Below, in pieces: positions 23,011 through 28,228 of a stretch of 64,000 nucleotides of DNA. This DNA is from Candidatus Binatota bacterium. GTDB lineage: Bacteria > Desulfobacterota > Binatia > UBA1149. Below the pieces are notes generated by a model. The model saw only the letters and a program-made list of their open reading frames with translations, had not been told where the DNA came from and did not search any database. The stretch's first letter is position 1. The number at the start of each line of letters is the position of its first letter. The DNA is taken from assembly GCA_012960245.1 (NCBI GenBank), contig DUBO01000050.1, positions 102,039 through 166,038 of the forward strand, written 5' to 3'. The position numbers were made by a program, and so were the translations under genes.

Positions 23011-23607
23011 GTGTTTACCGGCATCATCGAAGACCTGGCCAGCGTGGCCTCAGTATCGCCGCTGGAGCAGGGCTGCCGACTGGAGATAACTACCGCGCTG
23101 CCCACTGCTGAGCTGGTTATGGGCGAGAGCATCACCCTGAACGGAGCCTGCATGACGGTGGTGGTCATTGGCGACACCGGCTTCAGTGTAGACGTTTCAT
23201 CGGAGTCGCTCAGGTGTACGACGCTTGGTGACCTGGGCGAGGGTGCGCCGGTTAACCTCGAGCGCTCGCTGCGCATGGGTGATCGCCTGGGTGGCCATGT
23301 CGTGACCGGTCACGTCGACGGTGTTGGCCGCGTGCGCACCGTGCGCGAAGAAGGCGAATCGTCGGTGTACACCTTCGAGACTTCCCCCGAACTGCTGGTA
23401 CGGCTGGTCGAGAAAGGCTCGGTGGCTGTCGACGGTGTGAGCCTGACCTGCTACGCGCTCACCGACGACAGCTTCGACGTGGCGCTCATTCCCCACACGA
23501 TGACCGTCACCACGCTGGGGCAGCGGGCAGCGGGCGACGCCGTTAACCTCGAGCTCGACGTGCTGGGCAAGTACGTGGAGAGGTTGCTCGAGGGGCGGGT
23601 TGGCTGA
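23011..23607 (+). CDS. ribE: Riboflavin synthase alpha chain
   Basis: Catalyses dismutation of two 6,7-dimethyl-8-ribityllumazines into riboflavin and a pyrimidine. The 198-aa protein shows two tandem lumazine-binding barrels: the N-terminal FTGIIEDLA, then GESITLNGACMTV with GGHVVTGHVDGVG, and the second repeat with GSVAVDGVSLT. Starts with GTG at 23011, immediately ahead of the conserved FTGII; there is no strong Shine-Dalgarno. The other riboflavin genes are not adjacent; ribBA lies at 41859. No FMN riboswitch was recognised upstream. Confidence 0.94.
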   Translation: MFTGIIEDLASVASVSPLEQGCRLEITTALPTAELVMGESITLNGACMTVVVIGDTGFSVDVSSESLRCTTLGDLGEGAPVNLERSLRMGDRLGGHVVTGHVDGVGRVRTVREEGESSVYTFETSPELLVRLVEKGSVAVDGVSLTCYALTDDSFDVALIPHTMTVTTLGQRAAGDAVNLELDVLGKYVERLLEGRVG

Positions 23608-23701
23608 CCCTCCAGTAACGTAGCCCGCCGCGAAGAAATCGTGCCTGCAGGTAAAAACTCCTGGCCCGCCCTTCCTCCAAGTACTCGGGCCGCGGCAAGG
23701 G

Positions 23702-23811
23702 CGTATCACTCCAGGCCGGCCAGGAAGGGCACCATGGCCTTTACCGGGTCTACCTGTGAGTCGAGCTGTTTGCCCAGGCCGCTGAGCAGACCCATCACGC
23801 GCAGCACCAGC
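23702..23811 (-). repeat. Direct repeat copy A: duplicated 3' end of the ubiB-family gene (truncated pseudogene fragment)
   Basis: These 110 bp match 26920-27029 with a single mismatch (23719 G versus 26937 A). Read leftward they encode the last about 34 residues of the UbiB-family protein up to its stop codon (23706-23708), with one Ala-for-Val change. The rest of the gene is absent. Weaker similarity continues on both sides: about 25-30 gapped bases inward (GRVVKSRLVLR versus GNPIVKAGSDLLLVLR in translation), and about 60 bases beyond the stop towards ribE. The copy closes the three-gene cassette on the side opposite the intact gene. Apart from it, 23608-23875 shows no gene. Confidence 0.92.
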
Positions 23812-23875
23812 CGCGACTTCACAACACGCCCCTCGGTGGAACCTGGCTCGGGATACAGCCGCCCGCTTTGTTTTC

Positions 23876-24844
23876 CTATCCGTGTGCGTCGGGGCTCCGG
23901 ACCCACTGCCGCAGTAACCATCTGGGATGATCGGGATCTTCCGTGTAGGCGTCCCGGTCGTGGGCGACGACGCGATTTGCTATCCAGAGCATGTCGCCAG
24001 CGGAGAGGTCAAGGCGGAACATGTGCTCCTCGCGGGAGAGTTCTTCGTCCAGGGAGTCCATTGCCTTCCTCTCTTCTTCCAGGATAGGCACGCCGGTAAT
24101 GCGGTGACCGGTTTCGATCCAGTAGCGCATGTAACGCAGGGTCAGTCCCTCTTCGTGTTGAAAGATCGGGAACCGGTTGTCGGCGATGCTGGCGGGGGCT
24201 CGGTCGGCTCCAGGAGTTACGATGTCGCGAATGAAGTCCCGGTAGAGAACCTCCAGGGCGCTTGGGTTGAGACGGCGCAAGGCCTCGTGGGCCTGGGTTG
24301 CGCTGGCGATCCTCGACCCGCCGCCGCTTCGAGCCGGCCTCTGGCAGAGCAGTCCGACATAGTCCGGGACGTTGCCCAGACGGGAACTGTCGGTGTGCAT
24401 CCCGGTGGATTCGCGCGTCTGCGATACCGGGATCGCGGTTTTCTTGTAGCTCTCGCCCTGATCGACCACGTCGTATAGCGGCCCGTAGGTCTCGATGACT
24501 TCTCCCATGGCCGCACCGAGGGCGAGGTACAGTAGCGAGGCGGTAGTCGGATCTCCTTCCACGGGAATTCCCGTTACCCAGGCAACCCCTGAGCGGGTGT
24601 CCAGTTGCTCGCGGATCGCGACGGCCAGGGCGGTTGTTTCGGGAAGATCGATGACCCCGTGTCGGTAGCTCGCGATGGCATCGTGTTGCTCGGCTGCCCA
24701 TTCGGCCAGTCTTGTGCGCTCGCGAAGCAGCGATCCCGGAGCGCCGAGTTTCCAGCCGGAATCGCGAAGCAGGGTATCCACGTCAAAGCGGCGTTCGTCG
24801 AGCGGCTCGGGTGCTACCGGGTAGCTCTTTCTATCGACCCGCAC
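23876..24844 (-). CDS. TauD/TfdA-like Fe(II)/2-oxoglutarate-dependent dioxygenase
   Basis: The 322-aa enzyme has the iron facial triad: His150 and Asp152 in MHTDSSRLG, and distal His295 in ANRVVAHDRDAY. Arg308 or Arg312 in HPRWLLRQWV would bind 2-oxoglutarate. The Asp is present, so it should hydroxylate or otherwise oxidise rather than halogenate. The end pattern (NR..H.RDA....D.PRxLLRxW) is that of the PF02668-like group found in many natural-product and amino-acid hydroxylases. It is the last of three co-directional genes, 3 bp after the methyltransferase. Substrate unknown. Confidence 0.88.
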   Translation of the reverse strand: MRVDRKSYPVAPEPLDERRFDVDTLLRDSGWKLGAPGSLLRERTRLAEWAAEQHDAIASYRHGVIDLPETTALAVAIREQLDTRSGVAWVTGIPVEGDPTTASLLYLALGAAMGEVIETYGPLYDVVDQGESYKKTAIPVSQTRESTGMHTDSSRLGNVPDYVGLLCQRPARSGGGSRIASATQAHEALRRLNPSALEVLYRDFIRDIVTPGADRAPASIADNRFPIFQHEEGLTLRYMRYWIETGHRITGVPILEEERKAMDSLDEELSREEHMFRLDLSAGDMLWIANRVVAHDRDAYTEDPDHPRWLLRQWVRSPDAHG

Positions 24845-24847
24845 CGG

Positions 24848-25618
24848 CTACTCCTGTTTCTCGACCGAAAAAAGCAGGTGGAGCGGCTGGTCGAGAAGGG
24901 GCTCGAAGAAGTCGCGATCCAGGTTGACGTGTTCCGGCTGAACCCTCAGTTCCATGACTTTCGGCATGCCGGTCCACCCGGCATTCCCAAGCGCTTCGAA
25001 GTAGACCTCCAGCGGCTTGTGTACGCAACGCACTGGAACAGCCACTCCATCCCTCCGCCAGATCGACCCTTCGAGGGTCTTATCCCTTGCACTGAAGTAG
25101 CCGGTGCCGTCCCGACGAAAGAAGAACGGGGGCTCCTCGCCGCGCATGAACGGCAGGCTCGGATGGGGAACGGTGAACACGAAACGACCACCGGGCGCGA
25201 GCCAGGAGCGAACGCTGCGGATCACCTCGGTCATTACGTCGCTTGTCACGTAGTTGAAGAGAAAAACGGCGGCGATGCGGTCAAAGGCCGCTTCGGAGAG
25301 ATCCTGCAGATCCGCAGCATCTCCCTGTCGATATTCGATGCCCTGCGGATTCCTCTTCTCTTCGGCGCGAGCCTCATCGATCATTCCTTCGGACAGATCG
25401 ATTCCGAGAACAGACGCGGCACCCGCCGCCTTGATCTGCCGTGCAACGAAGCCTTCACCGCACCCCAGGTCGAGAACGCGTTGATCCGAGAGTGGCTCAA
25501 GTTGCTCCAGCACGTATGGGCGCGCCGTGAAGTCACTGAGCAACAACTTCTCGTTGCGCGCCCATTTGGGCGAAGCGCTGTCGTAGATTTCCCGCGTGGA
25601 GCGGGGACCGTCAGTCAT
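24848..25618 (-). CDS. Class I SAM-dependent methyltransferase
   Basis: The 256-aa protein has the Rossmann SAM motif VLDLGCGEGFVARQI (residues about 48-62), an acidic end of strand two (VLGIDLSEGMI), and motif GRFVFTVPHPS. It is of the small-molecule methyltransferase type (Methyltransf_11/25). The C-terminal region with HPSLPFMRGEEPPFFF and RRDGVAVPVRCVHKPLEVYF probably builds the acceptor pocket. Its start overlaps the diiron enzyme gene by 8 bp and the dioxygenase begins 3 bp after its stop, so the three act together. Acceptor unknown. Confidence 0.88.
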   Translation of the reverse strand: MTDGPRSTREIYDSASPKWARNEKLLLSDFTARPYVLEQLEPLSDQRVLDLGCGEGFVARQIKAAGAASVLGIDLSEGMIDEARAEEKRNPQGIEYRQGDAADLQDLSEAAFDRIAAVFLFNYVTSDVMTEVIRSVRSWLAPGGRFVFTVPHPSLPFMRGEEPPFFFRRDGTGYFSARDKTLEGSIWRRDGVAVPVRCVHKPLEVYFEALGNAGWTGMPKVMELRVQPEHVNLDRDFFEPLLDQPLHLLFSVEKQE

Positions 25619-26756
25619 CTGCGTACGCCTCCGGGTTCAGCGCGCGCTCGTGGAGCCAACTCCAGAAATCAGCACGCAAGGAGAGGGCCTTGTGCATTCC
25701 GCGTGCGAGGTCGAATCGACCTTCAGGCGTCACCGCAAGATCGATGGCGATTCTCGCGAGGGCGGCCTGGTGGTGGTCGTCGACGGCCGTGTGGAGAGGG
25801 AAGAACACGGCGTCCCTTGCACCGATATCGCCTACGGATTCGATGGCCCTGACGAAGGGAACGTAGATCTGCCGGACGATGTTCTCGGTGCCCAGGCCGA
25901 GGGCGCCCACGGCTTCAGCGGACGAACCATAGCTGAGAGCGTTGAGAAACATGTCGCGCCAACAAACTACCTCGATATGCTCCTCCCCGGCTGATTTTTC
26001 GTTCATTCCCAGTGCTTCCCGAAAGCGCTGGAACAGCAACGGGTGAGGAACGCCGACGACCCACTCCGCTTCGATCCCGATTTCCGTGAGCAGGGCCAGG
26101 CCCTCATCGTCGTACTGTCCTGACTCTTCGGTCAGGTTCTCCAGCAGAGCCTCGCGATGTTCGGTTTTTTCCAGCCGAGAAATGAGCGCGGTGAGGTAGC
26201 GGGGGAAGTGCGAGGAGTAGCCGTTATAGTGCCTTGCGAAATCTGTCAGAGCCCAACTCATGTCTGGAAGGTTGCCGGCGGCCAGGTCGGAGAGGTAGGG
26301 GTGCCGAAGCGCACGGTGGGACGTCGCCGAGGCTGCGAGTTCTTCGACGAACGCACGAGGCTCGATCTCGCTGCCCTTTTCGCCAACCCGCAGGCGCGAC
26401 TGCTGCAGCGCGGTGAGAGCTTCGAGGATTACGGTGATATCGCGGGGCTGTTCGCACAGTGCCCGAAACAATTCCTGCCGCTCGATGCGCCTCGCCTTTA
26501 CCGGTCCTACCGCCGAAGCCGTGGCCGTCCGCGGCCGGTTGTCCAGGAAGGCCATCTCCCCGAGAAGGTCTCCTGTTTTCAGCATGGTCGGAGCCGGATC
26601 GGTGTCGACGGAAACTTCTCCCGAAAGAATGTGGAACAGGTGTGTGTCGCAATCGCCGAACTGGATCATGCAATCGCGGTCACCAAAATCCTGGACTTCA
26701 CCGATCTTCAGAATAACGTCCAGCAAGGCCGGCGAAAAGCCGTGTGTCCAGTTCAT
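25611..26756 (-). CDS. Cyclic-nucleotide-binding domain fused to a haem-oxygenase-like diiron enzyme
   Basis: The 381-aa protein has two parts. Residues about 10-120 form a CAP/PKA-type cyclic-nucleotide-binding domain with a complete phosphate-binding cassette (GDLLGEMAFLDNRPRTATA, residues 62-80). Residues about 145-370 match the 'iron-containing redox enzyme' haem-oxygenase-like fold (HDO): FARHYNGYSSHFPRYL, ENLTEESG (206-213), PHPLLFQRFREALG and PLHTAVDDHHQAAL (320-333). These supply candidate metal ligands Glu210/211, His322, Asp326 and His328/329. HDO enzymes use a labile diiron site for N-oxygenation, C-C cleavage or desaturation. The fusion suggests control by cAMP or cGMP. The start ATG 26756 has no clear ribosome binding site; a GTG at 26879 would add 41 residues. 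Confidence 0.85.
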   Translation of the reverse strand: MNWTHGFSPALLDVILKIGEVQDFGDRDCMIQFGDCDTHLFHILSGEVSVDTDPAPTMLKTGDLLGEMAFLDNRPRTATASAVGPVKARRIERQELFRALCEQPRDITVILEALTALQQSRLRVGEKGSEIEPRAFVEELAASATSHRALRHPYLSDLAAGNLPDMSWALTDFARHYNGYSSHFPRYLTALISRLEKTEHREALLENLTEESGQYDDEGLALLTEIGIEAEWVVGVPHPLLFQRFREALGMNEKSAGEEHIEVVCWRDMFLNALSYGSSAEAVGALGLGTENIVRQIYVPFVRAIESVGDIGARDAVFFPLHTAVDDHHQAALARIAIDLAVTPEGRFDLARGMHKALSLRADFWSWLHERALNPEAYADD

Positions 26757-26919
26757 GATGGTCTTAGATATCGAATCTGCTGCCCAATGGGAAGTTCGAG
26801 TTATGGAGCCTGCCGCGAGGGAGTTCTGGTTGCAGGTATAAACTTGGTTCGCCTTTCCACCAGATACGCCGGCTGACACGGCGCTGCCCCGACACGGCTT
26901 CGGGTCGCGTAGTCAGGGA

Positions 26920-27029
26920 CGTATCACTCCAGGCCGACCAGGAAGGGCACCATGGCCTTTACCGGGTCTACCTGTGAGTCGAGCTGTTTGCCCAGGCCGC
27001 TGAGCAGACCCATCACGCGCAGCACCAGC
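26920..27029 (-). repeat. Direct repeat copy B inside the 3' end of the intact ubiB-family gene
   Basis: Partner of the repeat at 23702-23811 (109 of 110 bases identical, spacing 3218 bp, same orientation). Here it forms the natural C-terminal coding end of the UbiB-family gene and its stop codon (26924-26926). Confidence 0.93.
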
Positions 27030-28228
27030 AGCAGGTCGGAACCTGCCTTTACTATGGGATTGCCCCTCAGGGCGTGCCACAGCTCGTCGTTGATGCGCTC
27101 CACCATTGCCGGGTCGGCGTAGGCGCGGCCGCTCGCGAGAGCCTGCCCCAGCATAAGTTCGGCTATTGTGGCGAAGACCTCGTCGTCCTGGTCGCGGGTC
27201 TCAAAGCCCAGCTCGCGAAAAGCGCTGGCCACGCGCGCGGGGTCGTCGGCCACGACGGCGGCTGCGAGGCGGGCTGCCGACTTGCGTTTTTCGGGTGTGA
27301 ACTCGCGCGCCAGCCCGAGGTCGAGCAACACCAGCACCGGGCCGGGTCTCACCAGGAGGTTGCCCGGGTGAGGGTCGGCGTGAAAAAACCCGTGCTTGAG
27401 TATCTGCACGAGGTAGCAGCGCACCAGTCGCTCGGCTACTTCGTGTGGGTCTATGCCCAGCCGTTTCAGCGCCGCCAGGTCGGTGGGCTTGACCCCTTCC
27501 ATGAAGTGCATGGTCAGCACCGTTCGGCAGGTGAGCTCCTCGATGGGTTCGGGAAACTCCACGCCGGGGTCGTCGGCAAAGTTGTCACGAAACTTTCGTG
27601 CGTTGGCCGCTTCGTTGACGAAGTCGAGTTCGAGCGGCACGTAGGTGGCGATTTCCGAGAGCAGCACGCGCAGGTCAAAGCTGCGCTCTATTCGCGCCAG
27701 CAAGCGCACGAAGAACCCGAAATTGGCTATGTCTGTGGCGATCACCCGGTCTATGCCGGGGTACTGTACCTTGACGGCCACCGGGGTGCCGTCATGCAGG
27801 GTGGCGCGGTACACCTGTGCCAGCGACGCGGCGGCAATGGGCTGCGTGTCGAAGCTGGAGTAGGCCTGCTCGAGCGTCTTGCCGAGCTGCTGCTCCAGCC
27901 AGGGTTTCATTTCGGTGAAGGGCCTGGGCGGTACGCGGTCGTGAAGCTCGGACAGTATTTCTATCCAGGCCGGTGGCAGCACGTCGGCGCGGCTGCCGGC
28001 AAACTGGCAGGCCTTGATCAGCAGGCCTTCCATCGCCAGCGCGGTGTTGCGCAGGCGCAACGCGCTCGCGTGGTGACAGCCGTCGTACCAGTCGTGGTGG
28101 TGGCGTCGGCCGGTCAGCAGGCCCAGCACCTGCCGGCTCTTGTAGCGACAGTAGATGGCCAGCACCATGCTGGCGACGCCCAGGAACCTGCGCGTGCGGG
28201 TGAGAAGTGGCAGGGGCGCGCCGGTCAA
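26924..28228 (-). CDS. ubiB: ABC1/UbiB-family protein kinase-like ATPase
   Basis: The 434-aa protein has the atypical kinase fold of the UbiB/COQ8 family, linked to quinone synthesis or lipid homeostasis. Visible are an Ala-rich nucleotide loop (AAASLAQVYRA), VAVKVQYPG with the ATP-binding Lys, ELDFVNEAAN, catalytic loop FFHADPHPGNLLV and DLGLAREF in place of DFG. The KxGQ motif reads KACQ (LLIKACQFAGSRADVLP), with Gly replaced by Cys. The TTG start at 28228 overlaps the ccmD stop (TTGA), suggesting coupling to the cytochrome c maturation genes. Its last 110 bp are duplicated at 23702. Confidence 0.88.
   Translation of the reverse strand: MTGAPLPLLTRTRRFLGVASMVLAIYCRYKSRQVLGLLTGRRHHHDWYDGCHHASALRLRNTALAMEGLLIKACQFAGSRADVLPPAWIEILSELHDRVPPRPFTEMKPWLEQQLGKTLEQAYSSFDTQPIAAASLAQVYRATLHDGTPVAVKVQYPGIDRVIATDIANFGFFVRLLARIERSFDLRVLLSEIATYVPLELDFVNEAANARKFRDNFADDPGVEFPEPIEELTCRTVLTMHFMEGVKPTDLAALKRLGIDPHEVAERLVRCYLVQILKHGFFHADPHPGNLLVRPGPVLVLLDLGLAREFTPEKRKSAARLAAAVVADDPARVASAFRELGFETRDQDDEVFATIAELMLGQALASGRAYADPAMVERINDELWHALRGNPIVKAGSDLLLVLRVMGLLSGLGKQLDSQVDPVKAMVPFLVGLE

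Follow-up and report, generated by a model that had tools for sequence, protein, structure and literature searches.

Introduction

Haem-oxygenase-like diiron oxygenases (HDOs) number more than 10,000, of which about a dozen have been validated; those studied to date need no protein effector, and a 2026 review of the family makes no mention of fusions to a cyclic-nucleotide-binding (CNB) domain (PMC13108848). Characterised members include SznF, which carries a C-terminal cupin (PMC13108848), and the self-sacrificing pABA synthase CADD, which gives up Tyr27 and Lys152 (PMC11965152). CNB domains are found in receptors such as PKA regulatory subunits, CRP, HCN and PycTIR; in PycTIR, residues G86, E87, A89 and R97 contact the ribose and phosphate of cUMP (PMC11224242).

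Here we describe a three-gene cassette from a Candidatus Binatota bacterium (UBP10/UBA1149 genus; assembly of 2.8 Mb in 60 contigs), located in a window of 64,000 nucleotides, the whole stretch of DNA that was analysed. The cassette encodes a CNB-HDO fusion protein, a methyltransferase (MT) and a TauD-type Fe(II)/2-oxoglutarate (2OG) dioxygenase. It is read, with a probability of about 0.6, as a metabolite-tailoring operon acquired horizontally, whose first gene encodes a 3H/3C diiron oxygenase, probably under cyclic-nucleotide control. The fusion had been proposed to be undescribed, and this was borne out within the open-access papers searched, in which none naming both "heme oxygenase-like" and "cyclic nucleotide-binding" was found. 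The architecture looks new, and its constituent domain kinds are known.

Layout of the cassette

The sequence-only reading had reported a CNB-HDO fusion, an MT and an Fe/2OG dioxygenase gene, closely packed, and open reading frame and Pfam analysis placed all three on the minus strand (Table 1). The HDO and MT genes overlap by 8 bp, and a gap of 3 bp separates MT from TauD. The open frame of the first gene extends 5′ of its ATG, to position 26879. Pfam scores, with cut-offs in brackets, were 41.3 bits (27.5) for PF00027 and 61.6 (28.9) for PF14518 in the fusion protein, 76.7 (27) for Methyltransf_25 and 109.5 (27) for TauD. No Rfam family was found between positions 23500 and 27500, and scanning for promoters and terminators gave no informative signal.

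Table 1. Features of the cassette and its flanks (window positions).
Feature	Position	Strand	Remarks
CNB-HDO fusion protein, 381 aa, operon gene 1	25611..26756	-	ATG at 26756
CNB domain, residues 1-127: beta-roll 20-91, long C-helix 104-127	26376..26756	-	PF00027; secondary structure from the model
Phosphate-binding cassette GEMAFLDNRPRTATA, residues 66-80 (predicted)	26517..26561	-	G66, E67, A69, R76
HDO domain, residues 133-378	25623..26360	-	PF14518; Foldseek to CADD, 9e-8; structural Z
Predicted ligands E211 and H238, with family-specific insertion between them	26043..26126	-	profile alignment
Predicted ligands E291, H322, D326 and H329	25770..25886	-	kept in 27/27
Class I SAM-dependent MT	24848..25618	-	Methyltransf_25; fold nearest to N-methyltransferase ToxA
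TauD-type Fe(II)/2OG dioxygenase	23876..24844	-	PF02668; nearest solved relative FrbJ
ABC1-kinase gene 3′ end, upstream copy of direct repeat	26914..27032		flanks the cassette
Second copy of ABC1 3′ end	23696..23814		97% over 119 bp; far edge of the cassette

HDO domain

The fusion protein was modelled with AF2 from 27 sequences (pLDDT 88.5, pTM 0.67) as a beta-roll joined by a long helix to an HDO bundle. In structural comparison (Foldseek, VIA-align) the HDO part matched HrmI (Z 25.0), CADD (24.5), BesC (23.1) and also FlcD and UndA. Since less than one Z unit separates HrmI from CADD, the fold does not pick a reaction.

In the profile alignment, CADD residues E81, H88, E142, H174, D178 and H181, which we take to be the CADD metal ligands, pair with E211, H238, E291, H322, D326 and H329, and each of these six positions is invariant in the 27 aligned proteins. 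The HDO domain would accordingly carry a 3H/3C set of metal ligands, in agreement with the earlier assignment of this part as an HDO, and its metal content is probably diiron. E211 and H238 are 27 residues apart, compared with 7 in CADD and BesC. Related HDOs have intermediate spacings (about 12 residues in L006 and 14 in L068), which supports the assignment of H238 even though the insertion moves it away from E211; the idea that the canonical His had been lost was dropped in view of these spacings and of the profile alignment. The domain resembles the HDO superfamily (CADD, BesC, HrmI, UndA, FlcD) in its fold (Z 20-25) and six predicted ligands, but differs in its N-terminal CNB and in an insertion of about 20 residues that separates the first Glu ligand from the first His. 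It is orthologous to none of the characterised members; against the BesC equivalog model it scored 12.8 bits, with 500 required.

CNB domain

The CNB part matched HCN/CRP/PKA-type domains, with the HCN2 and HCN4 CNBDs at Z 17.4-18.1 (Foldseek, VIA-align); by sequence, the nearest solved CNB is that of PycTIR. A CNB is carried by 17 of the 27 aligned HDO proteins. G66, E67, A69 and R76, the equivalents of the four PycTIR contact residues, are kept in all 17, and the spacing of E67 and R76 is the same as in PKA. The fused CNB had been described as complete, and its predicted phosphate-binding cassette is indeed intact throughout; on the strength of these residues it is likely that the domain binds a cyclic mononucleotide (cNMP). 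The base specificity of CRP and PycTIR is set by a C-helix position that corresponds, by hand alignment to CRP, to L122, in a variable column; because this position is uninformative, no nucleotide can be named. Fold and phosphate-binding cassette are thus shared with the known CNB receptors, from which the protein differs in its output domain, a predicted diiron oxygenase. A putative class III cyclase is encoded in the host genome; near an HDO locus such a gene was seen in one of 34 neighbourhoods, as an ORF upstream of CNB-HDO (L018, 2-1273).

The CNBs of the fusion proteins group together in the tree (support 90/88), so the fusion is regarded as old. The CNB is missing from the other 10 relatives, and gating is therefore not required for the core reaction. 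On the HDO tree, in which many deep branches are weak, five changes are needed to explain CNB presence; the distribution as a whole would fit one old fusion followed by losses. An AU test that spoke against one CNB clade was set aside as an artefact, as the supposedly generic rows L098 and L103 are the L028 and L030 genes. The sole CNB of a non-HDO protein nested in the clade belongs to an M3 oligopeptidase (L018, 5120-7366), which has an N-terminal CNB and is encoded directly downstream of CNB-HDO and cupin. The CNB protein nearest to the clade (L097, 364-1821) has a C-terminus that by eye resembles a degenerate SAM fold.

MT and TauD enzymes

The SAM motif of the MT (D50-x-G52-C53-G54-E55-G56) is invariant in the alignment. 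Its model (pLDDT 82.7) is nearest in fold to the toxoflavin N-methyltransferase ToxA (Z 25.4; the best match from another family reaches 22.4), followed among the named relatives by XrdM (Z 22.2), both at 22-23% identity; none of the toxoflavin or dithiolopyrrolone genes was seen near the cassette. A PADLOC match of the MT to "mad2" was rejected, as it spans the SAM domain only.

In the TauD enzyme the metal triad (H150-x-D152, H295) and the 2OG-binding R308 are likewise invariant. Profile matches were obtained to FrbJ (1e-50), gamma-butyrobetaine dioxygenase (1e-16) and TmpA (1e-12), with which the enzyme shares the TauD fold, the triad and the 2OG-binding Arg, but not the gene company. MT and TauD both suggest small metabolites that are nitrogenous or acidic, without singling one out.

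Distribution and gene neighbourhoods

When 84,980 species genomes were scanned with the HDO alignment, limited by two short peptide patterns, 26 relatives were obtained. HDOs at 55-64% identity occur in Planctomycetota, Myxococcota/"Deltaproteobacteria", Cyanobacteria and Proteobacteria; record titles included Microcystis elabens FACHB-917, Synechococcaceae, Polaromonas/Lautropia-type MAGs and one MAG titled Bacillota. Profile searches, whose counts include some relatives already found before, show that the family is rare within the sampled phyla: one of 247 genomes was positive in the window's own phylum (besides the known G001, from the window's genus, and G041), 4/292 in that of Microcystis, 10/284 in that of a Myxococcales MAG and 2/349 in that of a Lautropia-type MAG. 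No relative was found in viral contigs, and the matches in plasmids were distant HDOs only; in one, a Pantoea plasmid, the region forms part of a gene whose annotation is EctB diaminobutyrate transaminase (L074, 5001-5624).

MT and TauD are collinear with HDO in the window, G041 (= L012/L021), L019, L024, L026, L037 and L051-L053, and are convergent, on the strand opposite to HDO, in the planctomycetes L027, L029, L030, L033, L034 and L036. Among planctomycetes with a lone CNB-HDO, a TauD match was found elsewhere in all five genomes (two were fragments at contig ends), and MT and TauD lay side by side in the three regions read. Distance matrices of HDO correlated with those of TauD (r 0.93, p 0.0002) and MT (r 0.75, p 0.009) over seven lineages. 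The three genes thus behave as the unit that had been proposed, adjoining in two orders or pairing in trans. As the set recurs across phyla (42-62% identity) in both orders, chance assembly is excluded; it is common to scattered aquatic bacteria of several phyla.

The three-gene description stood in so far as the set recurs, but proved incomplete, since elsewhere the commonest further partner is a cupin, overlooked in the sequence-only reading because the window has none. The cupin (about 170 aa) adjoins HDO in many other members. In L019 it is fused to the N-terminus of HDO, whereas the cyanobacterial L051-L053, where MT and TauD are also present, have it at the C-terminal end. Its profile matched gentisate-dioxygenase cupins best among solved structures. 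It was not found in G000, G001, G041 or any planctomycete tested, and a TauD of the cassette family was not found in six of the cupin-bearing genomes tested (G058, G059, G061, G063, G064, G081). Because some members have HDO plus cupin without MT or TauD, these two are not obligatory.

Further genes were noted around particular members. In planctomycetes (L027-L036, L038), three tandem AIM24-family genes lie upstream of CNB-HDO, and NifU-like and Rieske ferredoxin genes, candidate electron donors, follow it. In L025 (1904-2634), MT and TauD are fragments left by an internal deletion, from decay or assembly error. In the distant L068, the next ORF after MT resembles an ATP-grasp ligase by eye. 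No RiPP precursor common to distant lineages was present among the small ORFs near the core genes.

Proposed function and alternatives

The tailoring-operon reading builds on the observed domain folds, the conserved residues of the metal site, the SAM motif and the cNMP cassette, the genetic coupling and the single CNB clade. The N-terminal sensor would bind a 3′,5′-cyclic mononucleotide and adjust O2 activation or the oligomeric state; that a cNMP gates HDO catalysis in this way has about even odds. The HDO would oxidise a small N-containing, probably amino-acid-like substrate, a class that we suggest with equally balanced expectation, by N-oxygenation, desaturation or C-C cleavage, which are indistinguishable here; the sequence-only reading had proposed that the substrate would be a free metabolite. 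The MT may add one or more methyl groups, for which nitrogen is the likeliest acceptor. The TauD enzyme may hydroxylate the product, and the cassette as a whole probably makes a small metabolite; in other lineages the cupin, adjacent or fused, could perform a further oxidation or rearrangement. Confidence in this order of steps is low. It is tentatively suggested, at somewhat less than even odds, that this is the first HDO gated by a cNMP through a built-in sensor, heading an undescribed pathway common to Binatota, Planctomycetota, Myxococcota, Cyanobacteria and Proteobacteria. If so, it would be the first enzyme of the family with a built-in second-messenger switch. As the sensor is fused in most sampled members, HDO regulation becomes directly testable, and the conserved MT, TauD and cupin partners offer a route to the product of the family.

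The enzyme set might be correctly read and the CNB nevertheless serve as a beta-roll for dimerisation or docking, or as a sensor of another ligand. The CNB evolves much faster than the HDO (the window protein shares 24-39% identity with the others in the CNB, but 53-61% in the HDO), it is missing from the relatives mentioned above, its N-terminal place is taken in L019 by the cupin, another beta-barrel, and in L016, L018 and L024 an Arg follows the phosphate-binding Arg. The conservation of G66, E67, A69 and R76 in every CNB across phyla argues against such a role, which is considered unlikely. A role in phage defence, as an effector of the PycTIR or PycTM kind that responds to cUMP or cCMP, would agree with PycTIR as the closest solved CNB and with a PADLOC PycTIR match (1.2e-10). 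That match is limited to the CNB, however, and the output domain is an HDO; no Pycsar cyclase is adjacent, the one neighbouring class III cyclase is not at the window locus, and the conserved MT and TauD partners suit metabolism, so that a defence role is very improbable.

Two further proposals concern the chemistry. In an SznF-like logic, MT would methylate a guanidine or amine, HDO would N-hydroxylate it and the cupin would rearrange the product to an N-nitroso or N-N compound. The HDO-cupin fusions of L051-L053, accompanied by MT and TauD, recall SznF and related N-nitrosating enzymes, which likewise combine a cupin-linked HDO with a methyltransferase in the pathway. This scheme is nonetheless improbable: the predicted pattern has six ligands (3H/3C), against seven (3H/4C) in SznF, and no carboxylate of the family could be assigned as a seventh; the Fe/2OG enzyme is extra, SznF was not among the solved structures matched by the cupin profile, and a cupin of this type is lacking from the window protein and genome and from the planctomycetes. 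The absence of SznF from the VIA-align matches listed speaks neither for nor against the scheme. Kinship with CADD, with a role in folate synthesis, would agree with CADD being among the nearest relatives in sequence and fold. It is the least probable of the alternatives, as the sacrificed Tyr27 and Lys152 of CADD align with Leu and Phe in CNB-HDO and TIGR04305 gives 45.3 bits, with 200 required.

Probable horizontal acquisition of the cassette

By sequence, the cassette looks horizontally acquired, as proposed in the tailoring-operon reading. Its GC content is 0.61, with GC3 of 0.72-0.73 compared with 0.80-0.83 in three neighbouring genes, and in the tree the HDO of the window clusters with those of cyanobacteria (97/94), not with the HDO of its class-mate G041. 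Through a direct repeat, the ABC1 3′ end and a portion of the CNB-HDO leader recur at the cassette's far edge; beyond the near-identical stretch (Table 1), weaker similarity continues to about 23615, paired with 26830-27032. The repeat is the mark left by an insertion or a tandem duplication. In G002, of the same genus, the interval between ABC1 and ribE (L011, 5590-10573) holds unrelated genes, by eye beta-lactamase-like, DUF4143-type ATPase and GIY-YIG-like, from which it is concluded that this interval is a variable site.
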